A DNA stretch of 64,000 bases from Synechococcus sp. CBW1108 (GTDB taxonomy: Bacteria > Cyanobacteriota > Cyanobacteriia > PCC-6307 > Cyanobiaceae): assembly GCF_015840335.1 (NCBI RefSeq), contig NZ_CP060395.1:1711277-1775276 (forward strand), in the 5' to 3' direction. The number at the start of each line of letters is the position of its first letter. Position 1 is the first letter of the stretch. The notes under the pieces were generated by a model, which saw only the letters and a list, made by a program, of their open reading frames with translations, was not told where the DNA came from and did no database searches. Below are positions 1,284 through 10,491 of this stretch, in pieces. Both the position numbers and the translations under genes were made by a program.

Positions 1284-1961
1284 TTGCCCAAGAAGCGCCA
1301 GCTGCTCAACAACCCCTTTCTGGCCACTCTGACTGGGGTTCTGCTGAATGGCTATGGCGAATTGGTACGTCGCACCTCCAGGATTAGGATCCAAGCCGAT
1401 CCAGAGGTCGACCGCCTGTTGCATGAAGCAAATGCACCGATTATTTATGCAATCTGGCACTGCCACGTTTTCTTCTTGCCGCTCGTGCGTCTCTATGCAC
1501 GCAAGCCGATTTCCGTTCTTCTAAGTTCCCATCGAGATGCCCAAATCGTCGGGGTAGCTGCCCGAATGCGTGGTCTTGAACTGGTGGAAGGCTCCTCCAC
1601 CCGTGGCGGCACCCGCGCCTATCGCCAGTTGCTAGCCCTCCTGCGGGGGGGGGATTCGGTGTGCATTACCCCCGATGGTCCCAAGGGACCTGCCTTGAAG
1701 TTGAAAGCAGGCATTGTTCACCTTGCTCAGAAATCTGGTTGTGCTGTGGTTCCTGTGGCTGCGGCCTGCACGCGGATGCGCAGGATAAAAACCTGGGACC
1801 AAACCCTTCTACCCCTGCCCTTTGGACGTTGCGTGTTGGAGCTGGGCCCTCCGATCTACATCAGTCCTGAGAGCCCTCTGGATGATCAGCTGGCCCAGTT
1901 GGCTGCTGCTCTCAATGACACGGTCCACCGTGCGTCCGGAAACCTCCTCTCGTCGGCTTGA
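1284..1961 (+). CDS. DUF374 lysophospholipid acyltransferase-like protein, probable lipid A acyltransferase
   Basis: 225 residues from a TTG start. It shows the LPLAT fold signatures of the DUF374 family: WHCHVFFLP near residue 53, then SSHRDAQIV, in which His and Asp form the HxxxxD-like catalytic pair, and a TPDGPKGP motif that in this family contacts the acyl/phosphate substrate. DUF374 proteins transfer acyl groups at the inner membrane and are often coded beside Kdo transferase genes. Here the 3' end touches waaA, the first of four lipid A genes, so a late acyltransferase role in lipid A assembly is a reasonable inference. Base composition is visibly less GC-rich than lpxK and lpxB. Confidence 0.75.
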   Translation: MPKKRQLLNNPFLATLTGVLLNGYGELVRRTSRIRIQADPEVDRLLHEANAPIIYAIWHCHVFFLPLVRLYARKPISVLLSSHRDAQIVGVAARMRGLELVEGSSTRGGTRAYRQLLALLRGGDSVCITPDGPKGPALKLKAGIVHLAQKSGCAVVPVAAACTRMRRIKTWDQTLLPLPFGRCVLELGPPIYISPESPLDDQLAQLAAALNDTVHRASGNLLSSA

Positions 1962-1974
1962 GCGCGCCGCAGCT

Positions 1975-3231
1975 GTGAAGGGCAGTGCCCTGCTTTTGCT
2001 GTTCCGGCTGTTCGCCCTGCTGCTCTCCCCGCTGCTGTTGGCGGTGCTGATCTGGCGCCTGCTGCACGGCAAGGAGGATCCTCGCCGGCTTGGCGAGCGG
2101 CTGGGCCTAAGCGGGTGTCGCCGCCCCCCTGGCCAGTTGGTGTGGCTGCATGCCGCCAGCGTCGGTGAACTGATCAGCCTGTTGCCCTTGCTGCAGCAAT
2201 TGGAAGGGGTGTCTGGTCCCAGACTGCTGCTGACCACGGGCTCGCGAAGTTCGGCCGAGTTGGCGAGCCGCCGCCTGGGGGCTGGGGTGGTTCACCAATA
2301 TGTGCCCCTGGATCACTGGTTGAGTTTTGCCCTCTTTCGCCGCCATTGGCGGCCCGATCTGGGTGTGCTTGCGGAGGCCGAACTCTGGCCTGAGCTGATC
2401 CACGCCATGCCCAGGCCCCTGCTGATCAATGCCCGCATGAGTGGGCGTTCCTTTCGGCGCCATCAGCGGCAGCCTTGGTTCGCCGCTTGGCTGCTGGCGC
2501 GATTTCAGGCCATTCTGGCCCAGTCGCCCCAGGATGGTGAGCGCTTTCGACGTCTGGGGGGCCGCCAGGTGCGCTCAGTGGGGTCCACCAAGCTCGATGC
2601 GGAGCCGCCCAGGGCGGATCCGGCGATCGTGGCAAAGCTGGCCCAGGCGTTCGCCTGCCGTCCAGTGCTGCTGCTGGCCAGTAGCCATGCTGGCGAGGAT
2701 GTTGCCCTGCTGGCCGCCTACCCGGAGCTTCGACGCAGGCTGCCGGCCCTAGCCCTGTTGCTGGTACCCCGCCACCCGCAGCGGGCCCATGAGGTGGCTG
2801 CGGCTGCGGCTCGTGATGGCCTGGCCGTGCGCTGTTGGGGCGAGCTGGCCGGGGGCGCCCCCGCCGAAGCCCTCGATGTGGTGGTGGCCGATCGGATTGG
2901 GGAAATGGGCGCCTGGATCCAGGCCTCCCGTCTTGTGGTGATGGGGGGCAGCTTCGCTTTGGGGGGGAGGGCCATAGGCGGCCACAACCCGCTCGAGCCG
3001 CTTCGGCTCGGCCGCCCGGTGCTGTGTGGTCCCGATATGGCCAACTTCGCCGATCTCACAGAGGAGCTCATTGACACAGGTTGGTTGCTTCAGTGCGCCG
3101 ATCTCCCCCAGCTCTGGCAGGCGGTGGCGGCTCACCCGGCCTGGGCGGCTCTGCCCCAGGGGCCGCCGCCAGAGTTGCAGGGCCCCAGCCGCCTCATCGC
3201 CGCCCTGATCCGTGCGGAGCTCAAGGCCTGA
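1975..3231 (+). CDS. waaA: 3-deoxy-D-manno-octulosonic acid (Kdo) transferase WaaA
   Basis: About 418 residues from GTG 1975; an in-frame ATG at 1915 would add 20 residues and overlap the previous gene. An N-terminal membrane anchor (LLLLFRLFALLLSPLLLAVLIW) is followed by the hallmark WLHAASVGE, whose glutamate is the proposed catalytic base. EAELWPELI, VGSTKLD and the C-terminal GGHNPLEP and GPDMANF segments also match WaaA/KdtA, a GT30 glycosyltransferase. The enzyme adds Kdo from CMP-Kdo to the lipid A precursor on the cytoplasmic face of the inner membrane. The stop overlaps the start of lpxK (TGATG), so the genes are translationally coupled. CMP-Kdo synthesis genes are not in this window. 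Confidence 0.93.
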   Translation: MKGSALLLLFRLFALLLSPLLLAVLIWRLLHGKEDPRRLGERLGLSGCRRPPGQLVWLHAASVGELISLLPLLQQLEGVSGPRLLLTTGSRSSAELASRRLGAGVVHQYVPLDHWLSFALFRRHWRPDLGVLAEAELWPELIHAMPRPLLINARMSGRSFRRHQRQPWFAAWLLARFQAILAQSPQDGERFRRLGGRQVRSVGSTKLDAEPPRADPAIVAKLAQAFACRPVLLLASSHAGEDVALLAAYPELRRRLPALALLLVPRHPQRAHEVAAAAARDGLAVRCWGELAGGAPAEALDVVVADRIGEMGAWIQASRLVVMGGSFALGGRAIGGHNPLEPLRLGRPVLCGPDMANFADLTEELIDTGWLLQCADLPQLWQAVAAHPAWAALPQGPPPELQGPSRLIAALIRAELKA

Positions 3232-4232
3232 TGCTGCTTGCCACCCCCCGCTTCTGGTACGCCCGGCAGCCCACCCTGCTGGCCCGCCTGCTGCAGCCCC
3301 TGGGCTGGCTTTATGCCTTGGGCGTGCGTTGGCATCGGCGCCACAGCCGCCCAGGCCGGCTGCCTGTGGCCGTGCTGTCGGTCGGCAACATCACCTTGGG
3401 CGGCACCGGCAAGACACCCCTGGTGATCGCCCTGGCCCGGGAGCTCCAGCGGCGCGGCTTCACGGTGGCCGTGCTGTTGCGGGGCTATGGCGCCAACAGC
3501 CGCCAGCCCAGGCGGGTGGGCCCGACCGATGCAGCGGCTCTGGTGGGCGATGAGGCCTTGGAAATTCAGCGTTCCCTGCCAGAGGTGGCCGTGTGGGTGG
3601 GAAGGGACCGGTTGGCCGGGGGGGCGGCGGCGATCAGCGCAGGCGCCGATCTGCTGCTGCTCGACGATGGACTGCAGCATTGGCGCCTGGCCCGCGACTG
3701 TGACATCAGCGTGCTCGATCGTCGCCAAGGCCTGGGCAACCGCCTGGTTTTTCCGGCCGGTCCGCTGCGGGAGCCCGTAGATCAGCTGGGGCGCGCCGAT
3801 CTGCTTGTGCTTGCCGGTGCTGGTTTGGCCCCGAGGCCACCAAACTGGCCCTTCGAGAAGCCCTGCTTCTTCCTGACTGGTTGGATCGAGCCACCGGAGC
3901 GGTTGCGGGCAGTGCCCCTGCTGGCCTTCTGCGGCATCGGCCTGCCGGATAAGTTCTTTGCGGCCCTGCGGCAGGCGGGTCTGCAGCTGGTTGGCACCGT
4001 TGGTTTCCCAGATCACCACCCTTATGCTGCTGCAGATCTGGAGCGCCTGGAGTGCCGTGCAGACGCCCATGGCGCCACATTGGTGACCACCTTGAAAGAC
4101 TGGCACCGTCTGCCGGAAGGGTGGGGCGGACGGGTTGTGGCCCTGCCCCTAGTCCTCGATGGCCGGGTAGTGGCGGAGATCGCCTCGGCGGCCCTGGCCA
4201 GGCTGGAGGCCAGACGGGCTGGAACCACCTGA
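3231..4232 (+). CDS. lpxK: Tetraacyldisaccharide 4'-kinase LpxK
   Basis: 333 residues, normal for LpxK. It opens with a short membrane-associated segment, then the Walker A loop GNITLGGTGKTP (Lys61, Thr62) and the family motif LLDDGLQHW, in which the acidic pair lies in the ATP/lipid site. LpxK phosphorylates the 4' position of the lipid A disaccharide at the inner membrane, the step after LpxB and before Kdo transfer. The ATG at 3231 shares a base with the waaA stop; the stop at 4230-4232 directly abuts lpxB. A longer frame upstream exists but overlaps waaA entirely, so the TGATG start was chosen. Confidence 0.93.
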   Translation: MLLATPRFWYARQPTLLARLLQPLGWLYALGVRWHRRHSRPGRLPVAVLSVGNITLGGTGKTPLVIALARELQRRGFTVAVLLRGYGANSRQPRRVGPTDAAALVGDEALEIQRSLPEVAVWVGRDRLAGGAAAISAGADLLLLDDGLQHWRLARDCDISVLDRRQGLGNRLVFPAGPLREPVDQLGRADLLVLAGAGLAPRPPNWPFEKPCFFLTGWIEPPERLRAVPLLAFCGIGLPDKFFAALRQAGLQLVGTVGFPDHHPYAAADLERLECRADAHGATLVTTLKDWHRLPEGWGGRVVALPLVLDGRVVAEIASAALARLEARRAGTT

Positions 4233-5369
4233 ATGGTTGAGTCTCCTGCCAGAGCCTGCCGGATCCTGTTGGTGGCTGGGGAGGCCTCCGGCGACCTCCA
4301 TGGGGGGCACCTAGTGCGGGCGTTCCGCCAGCTTTGCCCCACTGCCGAAGTGGTGGGTGTGGGCGGGGCCCAGCTGGGTGCTGCTGGTATGGAAATCCTG
4401 GCGGATGTGAACAAGCTCTCGGCGGTGGGGCTGGTGGAGATCGCCGGCAGCATTCCGCGCCACTGGCGGGTGATGCGCCTGCTCAAGCAGCAGATGGCAA
4501 GGCATCGCCCGGACCTGGTGGTGCTGGTTGACTATCCGGGCTTCAACCTGATCGTGGCCAGGGAGGCCCACCGCCGGGGCATTCCGGTTTTCTTCTATGT
4601 GGCTCCGCAGGTGTGGGCTTGGGGGAAGGGGCGGGCGCGTCGCATGGCCGGCTTCATCGACCGGCTGGCGGTGATCTTTCCCTTCGAAGAGGCCATCTTC
4701 AATGGCTACGGGCGCCGCTTTGCCAGCTACGTGGGGCACCCCCTGCTCGATGGCTTGGTGGTGAGCTGCGATCGGGCCGACACCCTTCGGAAACACGGCT
4801 TTGACGATGTTCAGCCCCTGCTGGTGCTGATGCCAGGCAGCCGCCGCAGCGAGGTGCGGTTGCTGTTGCCAGCGATGCTGCGGGCGGCCGAACTGCTCAG
4901 CAACGAAGGCTGGCAGGTGGCTCTAGTGCAGGCCCCCACCGTTCCCGAGAGCTACCTGAGCCAGGTGGCCGGCGGCAAACTGCAGGTGCCGCTGATTCGA
5001 GGCGATACCTACAACCTGCTGGCAGCTGCCGACGCCGGCCTGATCGCCTCCGGTACCGCCACCCTGGAGGCTGCCCTGCTGGGCTGCCCTCCGGTGATTG
5101 TGTACCGCTTCTCGTGGTTCACCTATCTGCTGGCTAGGTTGGTCATTGGGCGCCGCTCGATGGGGCTGCCCAATGTGGTGCTCGGCAGGTCGGCCTTTCC
5201 GGAGCTGATCCAGCGCAATTTCAAGCCCGTTCAGCTAGCCCAGGCGGTGCGTGACCTGGCAGCGCGGCGCGGCCTGAATAGGCAGCTAATTGACGAACTG
5301 CGCTCGAAGATGGGGGTGGCGGGCGCCTCGGAGCGCGCTGCCAACCTGATGCTTGAGCTGCTGCGATGA
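4233..5369 (+). CDS. lpxB: Lipid-A-disaccharide synthase LpxB
   Basis: 378 residues, family length. GEASGDLHG at the N-terminus, VDYPGFN, the APQVWAWG stretch, VGHPLLDG, PGSRRSEV and GTATLEAAL are all LpxB (GT19) signatures. The enzyme condenses UDP-diacylglucosamine with lipid X to make the lipid A disaccharide. In most cyanobacteria lpxB sits in an lpxC-fabZ-lpxA-lpxB cluster; here those neighbours are absent and lpxB lies between lpxK and msbA instead. That may mean a second copy or a moved gene. The start overlaps nothing but follows the lpxK stop with no gap; the 3' end overlaps the next gene by ATGA. Confidence 0.93.
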   Translation: MVESPARACRILLVAGEASGDLHGGHLVRAFRQLCPTAEVVGVGGAQLGAAGMEILADVNKLSAVGLVEIAGSIPRHWRVMRLLKQQMARHRPDLVVLVDYPGFNLIVAREAHRRGIPVFFYVAPQVWAWGKGRARRMAGFIDRLAVIFPFEEAIFNGYGRRFASYVGHPLLDGLVVSCDRADTLRKHGFDDVQPLLVLMPGSRRSEVRLLLPAMLRAAELLSNEGWQVALVQAPTVPESYLSQVAGGKLQVPLIRGDTYNLLAAADAGLIASGTATLEAALLGCPPVIVYRFSWFTYLLARLVIGRRSMGLPNVVLGRSAFPELIQRNFKPVQLAQAVRDLAARRGLNRQLIDELRSKMGVAGASERAANLMLELLR

Positions 5370-7117
5370 AAGCTGAGATGAAAGGCCCCCTGCTGTCTCG
5401 CTTCCTGGCCTACGGAAGGCGCTATCTGTGGCCCCTTTTCAGCCTGGCGCTGCTGTTCAATTTTGCCTACGGGGCCTCGACCGCCTTCGTGCCCTTGGTG
5501 ATCCGCTTCCTTTTTGACGACATCCTGCCCTCCAATGACAGGGGCCGTCTTTACCTAGCCCCCGTCGTCATTGTTGGTGTGATTGCCCTGCGGGCGGTAT
5601 CCCAGTTCGTGGGCACCTATCTCACCGAGTCGGTGGGCCAGAGGATCACTGCCGATCTGCGCACGGACATGGCAACCAAGGTGCTCGAGCTGCCCCAGGG
5701 CTATGTGGATAGTCATCCTTCAACCGTGCTGGTGTCTCGGGTTCTGACGGATGTGGATCTAGTCAAGTCTGGCCTGGTGGATGGGTTCTCTTCCCTGATA
5801 AAGGATGGATTGACCCTGATTGCACTGGTGACCGTGGCCTTCTATCAGGACTGGCTGCTGTCTGTGCTCGCCTTCATTCTTTTCCCCCTAGGGGTCTATC
5901 CGGTGCTGCGTTCCTCCAAGAAGGTGCGCCATCATTCCAAAGCGGGCCAGACCCGGCTTGCCCGTTTGGCGGCCTACCTACAGGAGGCCCTGGTGGGCTC
6001 AAGGGTGGTGAAAATCTTCGGCATGCAGGCCTATGAACTGGGTCGTTTTCAGGAGGAGAACAATTCGGTTTTGGCTTCGGCTTTGCGCACCTCCAGGGCC
6101 AAGCTGATCAACCAGCCGCTGATGGAATTTTTGGGCGCTGTGGGTTTCAGTGCAGTGCTGGTTTATGGGGGCGAGACTGTGCTAGCCGGCGACCGCACCA
6201 CCGGCAGTTTCTTCGCATTCCTAACTTCGCTCTATCTTTGTTATGCCCCCTTCAAGGGTATTGCCAGGTCAAATGCCACCCTCCAGCAGGGCCTATCGGC
6301 GGCGGAGGAGCTGTTCACCATCCTCGATGTAGAGGTTGAGCCGAGCGATCCTCTGCGGCCCCAGCCCCTCACGGGTTTCGAGCAGGGGCTGAAGGCCGAG
6401 CAGGTGAGCTTCGCCTATGGTCAGGATGAGGTGATATCCAGCCTGGATCTCGAGGTGCCCTGTGGTGCAACCGTGGCCCTGGTTGGTCCAAGTGGGGGCG
6501 GCAAGAGCACGATCATCGATCTCTTTTGTCGCTTCCACGATCCCCAGCGGGGTCGACTGACGATTGACGGCATCGATTTGAGGCAGGTGGCTCAGGCTGA
6601 TCTGCGCGCCCTCATCTCCGTGGTCGATCAGAACACTTTTCTGTTCAATGACAGCGTTGCCAACAACATCGCCTATGGCCACGCCGAGGCTTCAGTGGAG
6701 ACGATCGAGGCAGCAGCCCGGGCCGCCAATGCCCACAATTTCATAGTGCAGTTGCCCCAGGGCTATGAAACCCCAATTGGTGAGAATGGCACCATGCTCT
6801 CTGGCGGACAGCGTCAGCGCATCGCCATTGCCAGGGCCCTGATCAAGAACGCCCCGATCCTCTTCCTGGATGAGGCCACATCGGCCCTGGATTCCGCCTC
6901 AGAGCAGCTGGTCCAGGAAGCGCTCGACCGCTTGATGCAGCATCGCACCACCTTGGTGGTGGCGCACCGGCTCTCCACCATCGTCAATTCCGATCGGATC
7001 TGTGTTATTGAAGCAGGCAGACTAGTTGAGGCCGGCACCCACAGCGAGCTCCTGGCCAGGGGCGGTCGCTATGAGTCCCTATTTTCCACTCAGTTTGCAA
7101 GGGCTGGAACCCCTTAG
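5366..7117 (+). CDS. msbA: MsbA-like lipid A-core ABC exporter
   Basis: 583 residues in the order of a half-size exporter: six membrane helices (residues ~20-300), then an ATPase domain with Walker A GPSGGGKST (~373), signature LSGGQRQRI (~478), Walker B ILFLDEATSALD and the H-loop AHRLST. Length and the single-chain arrangement fit MsbA, which flips lipid A-core across the inner membrane as a homodimer. The ATGA overlap with lpxB and the run of lipid A genes upstream support that substrate. Sequence alone does not exclude another lipid or drug exporter. A T-rich stretch follows the stop but no clear hairpin. Confidence 0.82.
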   Translation: MKAEMKGPLLSRFLAYGRRYLWPLFSLALLFNFAYGASTAFVPLVIRFLFDDILPSNDRGRLYLAPVVIVGVIALRAVSQFVGTYLTESVGQRITADLRTDMATKVLELPQGYVDSHPSTVLVSRVLTDVDLVKSGLVDGFSSLIKDGLTLIALVTVAFYQDWLLSVLAFILFPLGVYPVLRSSKKVRHHSKAGQTRLARLAAYLQEALVGSRVVKIFGMQAYELGRFQEENNSVLASALRTSRAKLINQPLMEFLGAVGFSAVLVYGGETVLAGDRTTGSFFAFLTSLYLCYAPFKGIARSNATLQQGLSAAEELFTILDVEVEPSDPLRPQPLTGFEQGLKAEQVSFAYGQDEVISSLDLEVPCGATVALVGPSGGGKSTIIDLFCRFHDPQRGRLTIDGIDLRQVAQADLRALISVVDQNTFLFNDSVANNIAYGHAEASVETIEAAARAANAHNFIVQLPQGYETPIGENGTMLSGGQRQRIAIARALIKNAPILFLDEATSALDSASEQLVQEALDRLMQHRTTLVVAHRLSTIVNSDRICVIEAGRLVEAGTHSELLARGGRYESLFSTQFARAGTP

Positions 7118-7329
7118 GGAATTTCCCATAGACGCTTTTCCCTTTTTGGGTTTGCTCTTAGCTTTTGCTTTTACCTTTTGATTGGGCGTTTGCCTTGTTG
7201 TTTGATCTGCTGCTGGAGTCCGCAGCTGCTGCCCACCTATTGCCAGTTTGGTGATAGCATGGGAAGGCTATCAAGCTGTTGGCGGTGAAAGTGAACGATT
7301 CGGTAGATCAGCCTGGTGGCCAGGGGGGT

Positions 7330-7605
7330 ATGGACACCTCCGAAATGACCGATGATCAAATTGTCGCTCAAATTGCAGGTCTCATCCGTAAGTGCGTCCC
7401 TGATGCCCAGGCGGTTGCAATTGGCATGGATTCCAGGCTGGTTGAAGATATTGGCATTGACTCCCTGGGCGCCTACGAATTAATCATGGAAGCGGAAGAC
7501 CTTTTCCATATTGAAATCACTGATTCCCAGGTTGAAGGCATAAAGACAATCGCCGACCTGATTGCCATCGTGCGTGGGCCTGTCGTGCAAGGGCCTAATG
7601 CCTGA
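7330..7605 (+). CDS. Divergent acyl carrier protein
   Basis: About 91 residues from ATG 7330; the frame can be read from TTG 7279 or GTG 7285, and ATG 7345 is also possible. The fold is that of an ACP: helix I (DDQIVAQIAGLIRK), the phosphopantetheine site GIDSLGAYEL with Ser45, and an acidic recognition helix. It differs clearly from the housekeeping cyanobacterial ACP, whose site reads GADSLDTVEL. It overlaps the following ketosynthase by 8 bases, so the two are coupled. Codon use is visibly less GC-rich than most of the window. Placement after five lipid A genes suggests it carries a special acyl chain, which is inference. Confidence 0.85.
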   Translation: MDTSEMTDDQIVAQIAGLIRKCVPDAQAVAIGMDSRLVEDIGIDSLGAYELIMEAEDLFHIEITDSQVEGIKTIADLIAIVRGPVVQGPNA

Positions 7606-8848
7606 ATCCTTGTCGGCTCAAGTTGCCGTAACCGGATTGGGCTGTATTTGTCCCCTGGGCAATACACCGGAAGCTGCCTACTCCGCCTACGCTCGAGGTG
7701 ATACGGGAATCAGCTTGCTTACTGAGCCCTGGGCCGAAACTTTCAAGTCCAGGCTTGGTGGTTTAGTCAAATTGGATATGGTTGCTGAGCTGGGTGATTA
7801 TCTGGTTAGTCGTCTGGATCGTTTTAGCCAGTTTGCCCTGCTGGCAGCTAGGCAGGCCTGGAATGCAAGTGGTTTGCATGATTCGGGGCTTGCCCCCGAG
7901 CGGCTCGCCGTAGTTATGGCCACTGGAATTGGCGGAGTTAATACGATGCTTGAGCAGCATCAAAGGCTCATCTCCGGCGCCAAGCGACTCCATCCGTTGG
8001 GCATCGCTATGGCTATGCCCAACTCTGCCACAGCGCAGATCACTATGGAAATAGGAGCCTGTGGGGGAGCCCATGCGCCTGTTTCAGCCTGTGCAGGGGG
8101 TGCCGAGGCGATTGCATGGGGGTTGATGTTGCTCGAAGCTAGAAAGGTTGATGCCGTGCTTGTGGGGGGGGCTGAATCTGCAATCCATCCCCTCGCGATC
8201 CGAGGATTTTCAGAGATGCGTGCCCTTTCTTCAAGACTTGACGATCCAGCCTCTTCTTGTCGCCCGTTTGCCGCAGATCGTGAGGGCTTTGTTTTGAGTG
8301 AAGGGGCCGGGGCAATTGTGCTCGAACGACTGGATGACGCCAGGGCCCGCCATGCGCATGTGCAGGCGCTGCTGATGGGTGCAGGGATGACCAGTGATGC
8401 GCACCATCTGGCCACTCCCCATCCCGAGGGAGTGCACGCAGCCAGTGCGATCAGTTTGGCCCTGCGGGATGCGGATATATCAGCGCAGGATGTGAACTTC
8501 ATCAGCGCCCACGCAACCGGTACCCGGATCGGAGATCTAGCTGAATCTCGGGCGATTGAATCTGTTTTTGGTGCCTCTACCCAGGATCTTTGGGTCACCG
8601 CTCCGAAGGGAGCCCTAGGCCATCTGCTGGGTGGAGCTGGTTCGGTGGAATCGGTCTTGACAATAAAGGCCCTTCAGGCTGGGGTGGTGCCGGTGAGCGT
8701 TAACTCAACTCCGCGGGATCCGGACATAGGCCTGAATATTCCCACTGCTTCTGAGCCCTATCTGGTGAATCGTTCCCAGCGTTTTGCCTTAAAAAATACA
8801 TTTGGTTTTGGTGGTCATAATGTATCTCTTGTGTGGGCAAGTGTCTAG
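7598..8848 (+). CDS. Beta-ketoacyl-ACP synthase, KAS II/FabF-like
   Basis: 416 residues from ATG 7598, inside the end of the ACP gene. The Cys-His-His triad of a condensing enzyme is complete: Cys165 in VSACAGG, His305 in SAHATGT and His342 in KGALGHLLGGAG, with FGFGGHN near the C-terminus. The nucleophile context ACAGG departs from the common TACA(S/T)G, so this is a divergent KAS rather than the housekeeping FabF. It should elongate acyl chains on the ACP coded just before it. Like that ACP, its DNA is less GC-rich than neighbours, hinting at separate origin or transfer. A polyketide or glycolipid role cannot be ruled out. Confidence 0.85.
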   Translation: MPESLSAQVAVTGLGCICPLGNTPEAAYSAYARGDTGISLLTEPWAETFKSRLGGLVKLDMVAELGDYLVSRLDRFSQFALLAARQAWNASGLHDSGLAPERLAVVMATGIGGVNTMLEQHQRLISGAKRLHPLGIAMAMPNSATAQITMEIGACGGAHAPVSACAGGAEAIAWGLMLLEARKVDAVLVGGAESAIHPLAIRGFSEMRALSSRLDDPASSCRPFAADREGFVLSEGAGAIVLERLDDARARHAHVQALLMGAGMTSDAHHLATPHPEGVHAASAISLALRDADISAQDVNFISAHATGTRIGDLAESRAIESVFGASTQDLWVTAPKGALGHLLGGAGSVESVLTIKALQAGVVPVSVNSTPRDPDIGLNIPTASEPYLVNRSQRFALKNTFGFGGHNVSLVWASV

Positions 8849-8970
8849 GGCTATTCAGGCATCAAGTGCTTAATGGGAATTGCGCCCCCCTGCGCCAGGG
8901 TGATCAACGCGGTTGGGAGGGCAAACCGCTAGAACGATTTCAGATAAAGCACTTTGCTTCCCTGCCCCGC

Positions 8971-10491
8971 GTGATTTCCTCTGCCACACTCCCAGTTGCG
9001 GATGGTCCCCGTTTCGACCGAGCTGATTGGTCAGGCGCTTTCCGCAACGTCGGCCTAGAGCTCAGTGACGAATTGGTAGTTGCCGTTCGGGGCACCATCC
9101 CAACAGAGTTGGCCGGCACCCTTTATCGCAATGGTCCGGGTCGGCTTGAGCGAGGCGGCCTCTGGGTCCATCACCCTTTCGACGGCGATGGCATGGTCGC
9201 GGCCCTCAGATTTGAAGCCGGTCAGGTCCACCTCACCAACCGTTTCGTGCGTACCGAGGGCTGGCTGGCCGAGGAGCGGGCCGGGCGCTTCGTCTATCGG
9301 GGGGTGTTTGGCACCCAGAAACCTGGCGGTGTCTTGGCCAATGCTTTTGATTTGCGCCTCAAGAACATCGCCAATACCCATGTGGTGCGGCTCGGCGATC
9401 AGCTGCTGGCGCTCTGGGAGGCGGCCGAGCCCCATGCTCTTGATCCCCAAACCCTTGAGACCCGCGGCCTGTCACGGCTTGACGGGGTACTTAAGCCTGG
9501 TGAGGCCTTCAGTGCCCATCCCCGCTTCGATCCAGGTCACCACGGTGAGCCCCGCATGGTGACTTTCGGTGTCAAGGCGGGCCCCACCAGCACGATCCGA
9601 TTGATGGAGTTCGCCACCGAGGAGCAGCCCGACGGCGTGCGGGCCGGTGAGCTGGTGGCCGACAGAAGCCACAGCTTCAAGGGGTTTGCCTTCCTCCATG
9701 ATTTCGCCGTCACCCCCAGCTGGGCAGTGTTTCTTCAGAACGCTGTGGCCTTCAATCCCCTGCCCTTCGTGTTTGGCCAGAAGGGGGCGGCCCAGTGCCT
9801 GGCCTCCAAGTCCGGCGAAGCCGGCCAGTTCTGGTTAGTGCCTCGTCAGAGCGGCCACCATGCCGGCGCCAAACCAGTGCAGCTGCCAGCTCCCGAAGGT
9901 TTTGTGTTTCACCACCTCAATGCCTTTGAGGATGGCGCTAGTGGTGAAGTGGTGGTGGATTCGATCTACTACAAAGACTTCCCCTCGATCGGCCCCCAGG
10001 TTGATTTCCGCGAGATTGACTTCGCTTCGATTCCCGAGGGGCAACTACGCCGCTGCCGCATCAACCCCCGCTCCGGGGCTGTGCAGAGCGAATGGCTGGA
10101 GCAGCGTTGTTGCGAGTTCGCGATGGTCAACCCCGCCCACCAAGGGCTTGAAGCGCGCTTTGCCTGGATGGCGGTGGCGGAGTGCGAACGGGGCAATGGT
10201 CCCTTGCAGGCCATTGAGAAACTTGACCTCCAAACCGGCGAGCGTCGGCTGTGGAGTGCTGCCCCCCGCGGTTTTGTCACCGAGCCCGTAATGGTGCCCC
10301 GCCCAGCATCTACTGCCGAAGACAAGCATGCTGAAGATAGTGGCTGGGTGTTGGTGCCGGTCTGGAACGGAGCCCGCTGCGCCACTGACCTGGTGATTCT
10401 CAGGGCCGATGATCTGGCTGAACAGGCAGTGCTGGAGCTCCCATTGGCGATCCCCTACGGCCTGCACGGCAGCTGGGCTGCTGCCACTTGA
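8971..10491 (+). CDS. Carotenoid cleavage oxygenase (RPE65/CCD family)
   Basis: About 506 residues from GTG 8971; the frame is open further upstream, but family alignments normally begin near FDRADWSGAFRNV. The four iron-binding histidines of the beta-propeller dioxygenases are visible in their usual contexts: ANTHVV, LHDFAVT, VFHHLNAFED and the C-terminal YGLHGSW. HPFDGDGM and GTLYRNGPG are further family marks. Such enzymes use O2 to split carotenoids or apocarotenoids at a double bond. The exact substrate cannot be told. Separated by ~120 bases from the ketosynthase gene, so probably its own unit; convergent with rdgB, whose stop is adjacent. Confidence 0.9.
   Translation: MISSATLPVADGPRFDRADWSGAFRNVGLELSDELVVAVRGTIPTELAGTLYRNGPGRLERGGLWVHHPFDGDGMVAALRFEAGQVHLTNRFVRTEGWLAEERAGRFVYRGVFGTQKPGGVLANAFDLRLKNIANTHVVRLGDQLLALWEAAEPHALDPQTLETRGLSRLDGVLKPGEAFSAHPRFDPGHHGEPRMVTFGVKAGPTSTIRLMEFATEEQPDGVRAGELVADRSHSFKGFAFLHDFAVTPSWAVFLQNAVAFNPLPFVFGQKGAAQCLASKSGEAGQFWLVPRQSGHHAGAKPVQLPAPEGFVFHHLNAFEDGASGEVVVDSIYYKDFPSIGPQVDFREIDFASIPEGQLRRCRINPRSGAVQSEWLEQRCCEFAMVNPAHQGLEARFAWMAVAECERGNGPLQAIEKLDLQTGERRLWSAAPRGFVTEPVMVPRPASTAEDKHAEDSGWVLVPVWNGARCATDLVILRADDLAEQAVLELPLAIPYGLHGSWAAAT

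Follow-up and report, generated by a model that had tools for sequence, protein, structure and literature searches.

The window analysed here, a stretch of 64,000 nucleotides from Synechococcus sp. CBW1108, contains two overlapping genes for an acyl carrier protein (ACP) and a β-ketoacyl-ACP synthase (KAS), placed within an operon of lipid A genes (Table 1). The upstream order DUF374-waaA-lpxK-lpxB-msbA given in a preliminary description of the sequence was confirmed by Pfam and NCBIfam. The ACP is recognised by the Pfam PP-binding model (E 2.2e-9) and scores under all NCBIfam ACP cut-offs; the serine of its DSL motif is encoded at 7462-7464. The KAS gene overlaps it by 8 bases, and its product has both ketoacyl-synthase domains of Pfam (N and C). 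With 396.6 bits it passes the cut-off of the FabF-subfamily model PRK07314 (387), and with 410.2 bits it stays below that of the fabF equivalog TIGR03150 (493.75). Residues 7-412 of about 416 can be aligned to solved FabF chains, the best being 1j3n (E 1.3e-92). The catalytic residues, read directly from the sequence, are Cys (8090-8092), His (8510-8512), Lys (8606-8608) and a second His (8621-8623); the Cys-His-His triad seen earlier is present, with the Lys in addition. The lower GC content noted for the pair is also borne out, with GC3 of 0.54 and 0.53 against 0.61-0.83 in the surrounding genes from DUF374 to pgm. Compared with the sister strain Synechococcus sp. CS-1331, dN/dS is 0.115 for the ACP and 0.126 for the KAS (0.03-0.39 for the neighbours), and such low values rule out a decaying remnant. 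The two genes are real, intact and under purifying selection.

Table 1 The acyl carrier protein-ketosynthase pair and its neighbours in the lipid A operon (positions in the window)
Feature	Position	Strand	Remarks
DUF374 acyltransferase-like protein	1284..1961	+	Pfam; conserved operon member also where the pair is absent
waaA/kdtA Kdo transferase ORF	1822..3231	+	Pfam, NCBIfam; start uncertain
lpxK	3231..4232	+	Pfam, NCBIfam; ORF opens at 3081, start uncertain
lpxB	4233..5369	+	Pfam, NCBIfam
msbA-like transporter, upstream border of insertion	5366..7117	+	TIGR02203 549.7 bits, under the cut-off of 602
212-base stretch between msbA and ACP, part of insertion	7118..7329	+	
Specialised ACP, 91 aa	7330..7605	+	ATG 7330; GIDSLGAYEL phosphopantetheine site; Pfam PP-binding
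β-Ketoacyl-ACP synthase II-type, 416 aa	7598..8848	+	ATG 7598, stop ends at 8848; Cys-His-Lys-His catalytic set intact; Pfam, NCBIfam, trees
RPE65/carotenoid cleavage dioxygenase ORF, downstream border of insertion	8833..10491	+	Start uncertain; directly after msbA in relatives

Is the pair a regular part of this operon? The order DUF374-waaA-lpxK-lpxB-msbA-RPE65-rdgB-pgm recurs in the genus. Fourteen other genomes have an lpxK match, and 12 operon loci were read from them, with CS-1331 read separately (L048) and a genome with a match of 50 residues (G008) left out. One contig ends before RPE65 (L135), and at all of the 11 loci where the junction is readable the msbA and RPE65 ORFs overlap with nothing between them, by 4 bases at nine loci and by 115 at two. 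The distance from msbA to RPE65 is 1,715 bases in the window and 1,854 in CS-1331, that is, an insertion of 1.7-1.9 kb holds the pair in these two strains. Since the relatives without the pair have the two flanking ORFs overlapping, the pair is most simply, by parsimony, an insertion in two strains and not a loss in the others. A promoter and terminator scan of the 212-base stretch ahead of the ACP gave nothing above chance and no better than shuffled sequences. The acyltransferase at 1284 had been proposed as the enzyme that uses the pair's chain; however, the DUF374 protein is present at 10 of the 11 loci without the pair (at L127 it was not found by the ORF caller), and it is therefore not the dedicated partner of the pair. 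RPE65 is ruled out as a partner too, as it follows msbA also where the pair is missing. Extra ORFs lie between RPE65 and rdgB at four loci (L125, L128, L129 and L134). A carotenoid-cleavage-dioxygenase-like gene follows msbA across the genus, with the 4-base overlap at 9 of 11 loci. Of 16 genus genomes, 15 gave an lpxK match (in one of them the match of 50 residues) and G003 gave none, as did all 24 genomes from outside the genus. A 2010 survey, in its available text, credits cyanobacteria with only lpxA, C, D and B (PMC3087551).

The genome, a single contig of 3.23 Mb, has four ketosynthases and three ACPs by Pfam, which belong to three ACP/KS systems: the window pair, a housekeeping pair and, at about 1.236-1.240 Mb, a third system. 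The housekeeping acpP-fabF pair was found at about 1.588-1.589 Mb (G000:C1), and this rules out the window pair as the sole acpP/fabF of the genome. The housekeeping FabF resembles the window KAS in its KAS II fold and catalytic residues and is 38-40% identical to it, but it falls into another clade and has AHGTST around the first His where the window KAS has AHATGT. The housekeeping AcpP likewise reads GADSLD where the window ACP reads GIDSLG; the two share 41% over 49 aa, or 38% over 64 aa in another comparison. Because a separate housekeeping pair exists, part of the preliminary description holds: a specialised ACP and KAS, distinct from acpP-fabF, do lie directly after lipid A genes. The analogy with rhizobial acpXL that it drew does not hold.

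The third system is a type II FAS/PKS set (G000:C1:1234444-1241314; L051:6444-13314), which is also present in CS-1331 (L053). It comprises two SDR reductases, an ACP, a FabZ/FabA-like dehydratase, a KS, a KS-beta that lacks the catalytic Cys, and a fusion of a phosphopantetheinyl transferase with an LpxL-type acyltransferase (398 aa), in which the HX4D motif reads HFGNFT. The order ACP, dehydratase, KS, KS-beta, LpxL is like acpXL-fabZ-fabF-fabF-lpxXL; two reductases stand before the ACP, and the zinc-binding dehydrogenase of the acpXL unit is missing. The ACP of this set is 39% identical to AcpXL over 74 aa (2e-14) and 39% to a Streptomyces type II ACP over 124 aa (5e-24); its KS is 42% identical to the FabF of the same genome, 41% to a Streptomyces KS and 35% to an XL ketosynthase. 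GC3 of the set is 0.51-0.66 against 0.71-0.88 in most neighbours, and among 388 genomes of the class the KS-beta as query matched 17 others, all at 32-38%. Of 13 genomes searched for an LpxL-type acyltransferase (PF03279), all 9 from the genus have one and none of the 4 others does. In all seven other genus members tested LpxL has 317-348 aa (open frame), whereas CBW1108 and CS-1331 have a single PF03279 protein, the one fused to the phosphopantetheinyl transferase, with 24-28% identity to the five usual LpxLs compared. Among the genomes read, the fused form is limited to these two pair-bearing strains.

Where do the closest relatives of the window pair lie? The window KAS has one 95% match in 60 genomes (CS-1331), three at 44-48%, and the rest at 43% or lower. 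A contig search with it returned the same close relative plus six proteins at 36-39%, and tblastn against plasmids gave no match of 60% or more, the best being about 44%. When 400 genomes were sampled from the family, 44 had a KAS of this clade (E<=1e-95, a limit set at a gap in the scores), the nearest being those of three genomes of the genus labelled g6, at 60%. We read the surroundings of all clade matches except the window strain and CS-1331, i.e. 42 loci in stretches of 8.9-20 kb. KpsC/KpsS homologues, by BLAST to reference proteins, are present at all 42. An adjacent ACP was found at 41 (by the ORF caller, not at L209), a polysaccharide export protein at 39 (not at L100, L168 and L179) and a GNAT at 36 (not at L173, L181 and L201, and absent in the three g6 clusters). 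By BLAST in the same stretches, homologues of DUF374, waaA, lpxK, lpxB and RPE65 occur at none of the 42; lpxA, C and D were outside the set of genes compared, and msbA was left uncounted because other ABC transporters match it (L098, 38%). The lipid A association suggested earlier for the pair thus does not extend to its relatives, which sit beside KpsC/KpsS genes; the preliminary description had itself named such an outcome as one that would refute its reading. The link is also seen on the genome level: PF05159, the KpsC/KpsS family, occurs in 42 of 44 genomes with a clade KAS against 38 of 356 without (Fisher 5e-32, uncorrected for kinship). KAS and PF05159 were counted in two draws of 400 genomes, and all 42 names are common to both. 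The window strain and CS-1331 are the genomes that depart from this: neither PF05159 nor PF13444, the family of the partner GNAT, has any match in them, so that the window pair has no KpsC/KpsS in its cluster.

The capsule-cluster pairs are like the window pair in gene order and shared motifs, and their KAS are 44-60% identical to the window KAS and of one clade with it. Their ACPs share 36-52% with the window ACP in the best matches besides the sister strain, with 49-52% over 80 aa for the three g6 clusters. They differ in having KpsC/KpsS and PF13444, while the window genome is without both and carries its pair in the lipid A operon. At two loci read by Pfam (L045, L047), the export protein is followed by GNAT (PF13444)-ACP-KAS, facing KpsC and a fusion of KpsS with a PF01553 acyltransferase. 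The GNAT weakly matches residues 305-569 of the OlsF model, with 44 and 56 bits against a cut-off of 620, and neither the GNAT nor the KpsS-acyltransferase found a match in the PDB. Putative glycosyltransferases of DUF6716 recur beside KpsC/KpsS at these two loci and at many other capsule loci. The g6 clusters (L165, L166, L167) carry a PLP enzyme and an SDR together with the ACP and KAS. In L166 the PLP enzyme is like AONS/serine palmitoyltransferase, and a KpsC-like protein, an ABC-2 permease, a KpsE-like protein (under the cut-off) and glycosyltransferases are also present. This enzyme shares 89% and 76% identity with its counterparts in the two remaining g6 clusters, and its best match in the window genome has 36%. 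The g6 clusters could make a long-chain amino base for a capsule lipid.

A tree of 68 ketosynthases, including those of 31 of the 42 loci, puts 33 pair and capsule KAS into one group (support 98/91) with housekeeping FabF apart. Within the group, the window and CS-1331 KAS are sister to the three g6 KAS (100/99). The placement is unchanged in a 25-row tree that includes Sinorhizobium and Streptomyces ketosynthases (98/94 and 100/100). In both trees the window KAS is nested in the capsule clade. Three Mycobacterium KAS stand at the base of the clade on a long branch, and the tree program warns of long branches. The branch length is about 1.4 from the window KAS to the g6 proteins compared with about 0.2 for FabF within the genus. 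On these branch lengths, to be read with the long-branch warning, the pair was most likely acquired horizontally. Two features that had been thought unusual are not so within the clade. GIDSLGxYE is found in most clade ACPs, the window ACP included (L100, L170, L176 and L178 differ; the site pattern gave no reading in L169, L171 and L048), so that the supposedly non-standard site is not a defective one. In the ACAGG context of the nucleophile the letter can be A, S or G within the clade; the context is unremarkable, and as a sign of altered chemistry it is ruled out. The clade KAS have HATGT (except L178) at the position where housekeeping FabF has HGTST.

What, then, might the pair do? KAS II enzymes use malonyl-ACP to elongate acyl-ACP, and by means of a separate ACP the chain is directed to particular acyltransferases. 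We consider it fairly probable that the pair is a dedicated acyl module of the capsule type, which was acquired and has been retained for the acylation of a glycolipid in the envelope, with lipid A as the likeliest acceptor. It consists of a specialised ACP and an elongating KAS, belongs to the clade of the ACP-KAS pairs that picocyanobacteria of this family carry in KpsC/KpsS capsule clusters, and was most likely inserted between msbA and the next lipid A operon gene in the ancestor of CBW1108 and CS-1331. The data establish the identity of the pair, its clade, its insertion site, its intactness, the selection on it and the lack of its partners; the direction of transfer, the substrate, the product and the acceptor are inferred. 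The KAS may lengthen an acyl chain carried by the dedicated ACP through condensation with malonyl units, the other steps presumably being carried out by housekeeping enzymes, and the identity of the ACP would reserve this acyl-ACP for an acyltransferase making an envelope glycolipid. The acceptor in the capsule clusters would be a capsule lipid, reached by way of the weakly OlsF-like GNAT and the acyltransferase domain fused to KpsS. As these are the acyltransferases recurring with the pair, a dedicated capsule lipid would be the economical reading there. Since the closest relatives lie in capsule clusters, the pair looks like a capsule-lipid tool borrowed into the lipid A operon, and since the capsule partner enzymes are missing from the window genome, the acceptor has presumably changed. 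The missing partners and the insertion in the lipid A operon make a role in lipid A possible, and lipid A, or a lipid made with it, appears the likeliest acceptor here. The two strains also differ from the genus in LpxL, the fused form replacing the usual one; this adds a little weight to a lipid A acceptor, the strains being one lineage and the co-occurrence one event. Against this reading it should be noticed that no pair-specific acyltransferase adjoins the pair, that chance may account for its site in the operon, and that the capsule link could reflect a decorated polysaccharide instead of an anchor. Moreover, the third system with its acpXL-like set would be a better candidate than the window pair for a special lipid A chain, if one exists.

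Other readings distribute the same evidence differently. The pair might still serve a polysaccharide lipid, or another envelope lipid than lipid A, with its partners elsewhere and its place after msbA incidental. This would suit the capsule ancestry and the upstream stretch of 212 bases that the pair has to itself, but PF05159 and PF13444 are missing from the genome and the g6 PLP enzyme finds a match of just 36% there, and we hold it to be unlikely. Quite improbable is the original proposal of a cyanobacterial counterpart of rhizobial acpXL-fabF, making a very long lipid A chain for the acyltransferase at 1284. The position directly after waaA-lpxK-lpxB-msbA, the separate housekeeping acpP-fabF and the purifying selection all agree with it; it is opposed by the capsule-cluster relatives, by the occurrence of DUF374 without the pair, and by the gene content and the sequence comparison with the acpXL unit given below. 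Least of all do we expect a nearly neutral passenger that stems from a capsule cluster, either lost since or transferred, and that would at most add to general fatty acid synthesis. A restriction to two strains and the absence of partner genes nearby are what such a passenger would leave, yet dN/dS is low in both genes, and the catalytic residues and the gene overlap have been kept, which makes this very improbable.

The preferred reading of an acquired acyl module connects specialised ACPs, capsule lipids and lipid A. The recurring block of GNAT-ACP-KAS facing KpsS-acyltransferase and KpsC suggests a concrete lipid chemistry, open to test in cultured marine Synechococcus. The window strain offers a natural example of this acyl module in a genome that lacks KpsC/KpsS. 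In E. coli the capsule anchor is lysophosphatidylglycerol. A bolder and tentative proposal, possible though doubtful as a whole, is that picocyanobacterial KpsC/KpsS capsules are, unlike that of E. coli, built on a custom lipid made by the dedicated ACP, KAS, GNAT and KpsS-fused acyltransferase, and that one lineage lacking KpsC/KpsS recruited the ACP-KAS half to its lipid A operon, giving lipid A a new chain. A literature search on a capsule-linked ACP-KAS module (KpsC/KpsS, Synechococcus, lipid anchor), with most subscription journals outside its scope, found no description of it. The available text of a 2015 cyanobacterial survey reads the restricted occurrence of KpsS/KpsC as indicating that a poly-Kdo linker is either missing or made in another way (PMC4594306).

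How does the pair compare with known systems? The acpXL-lpxXL unit of Rhizobiaceae is described, in the available part of one report, as six genes including fabZ, two fabF, a dehydrogenase and lpxXL (PMC11901934), and the same six genes are present in the Sinorhizobium meliloti record. The window pair is like this unit in combining a specialised ACP and KAS for an envelope lipid. It differs in consisting of one ACP and one KAS, with msbA and RPE65 as neighbours; no fabZ, second fabF, dehydrogenase or lpxXL lies beside it. By BLAST with the S. meliloti unit, the window ACP matches AcpXL with 33% over 30 aa (E 0.001), compared with 49% over 81 aa for a capsule-cluster ACP, and the window KAS is 30% and 21% identical to the two XL ketosynthases, 39% to its own FabF and 60% to a capsule KAS. 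Both proteins are thus closer to housekeeping proteins than to the Sinorhizobium unit, and gene content, kinship and sequence comparison together led us to reject an acpXL-like unit. Two capsule systems serve as precedents. RkpF of Sinorhizobium meliloti, a specialised ACP for capsular polysaccharide according to a passage citing it (cited in PMC9386255), can be likened to the capsule-cluster ACPs as a specialised ACP tied to capsule genes. VexE, in the available text on the Vi antigen capsule, is an ACP-dependent acyltransferase making a dedicated glycolipid (PMC9597891); it is neither an ACP nor a KAS, and by its description it sets a precedent for an ACP-dependent capsule glycolipid.
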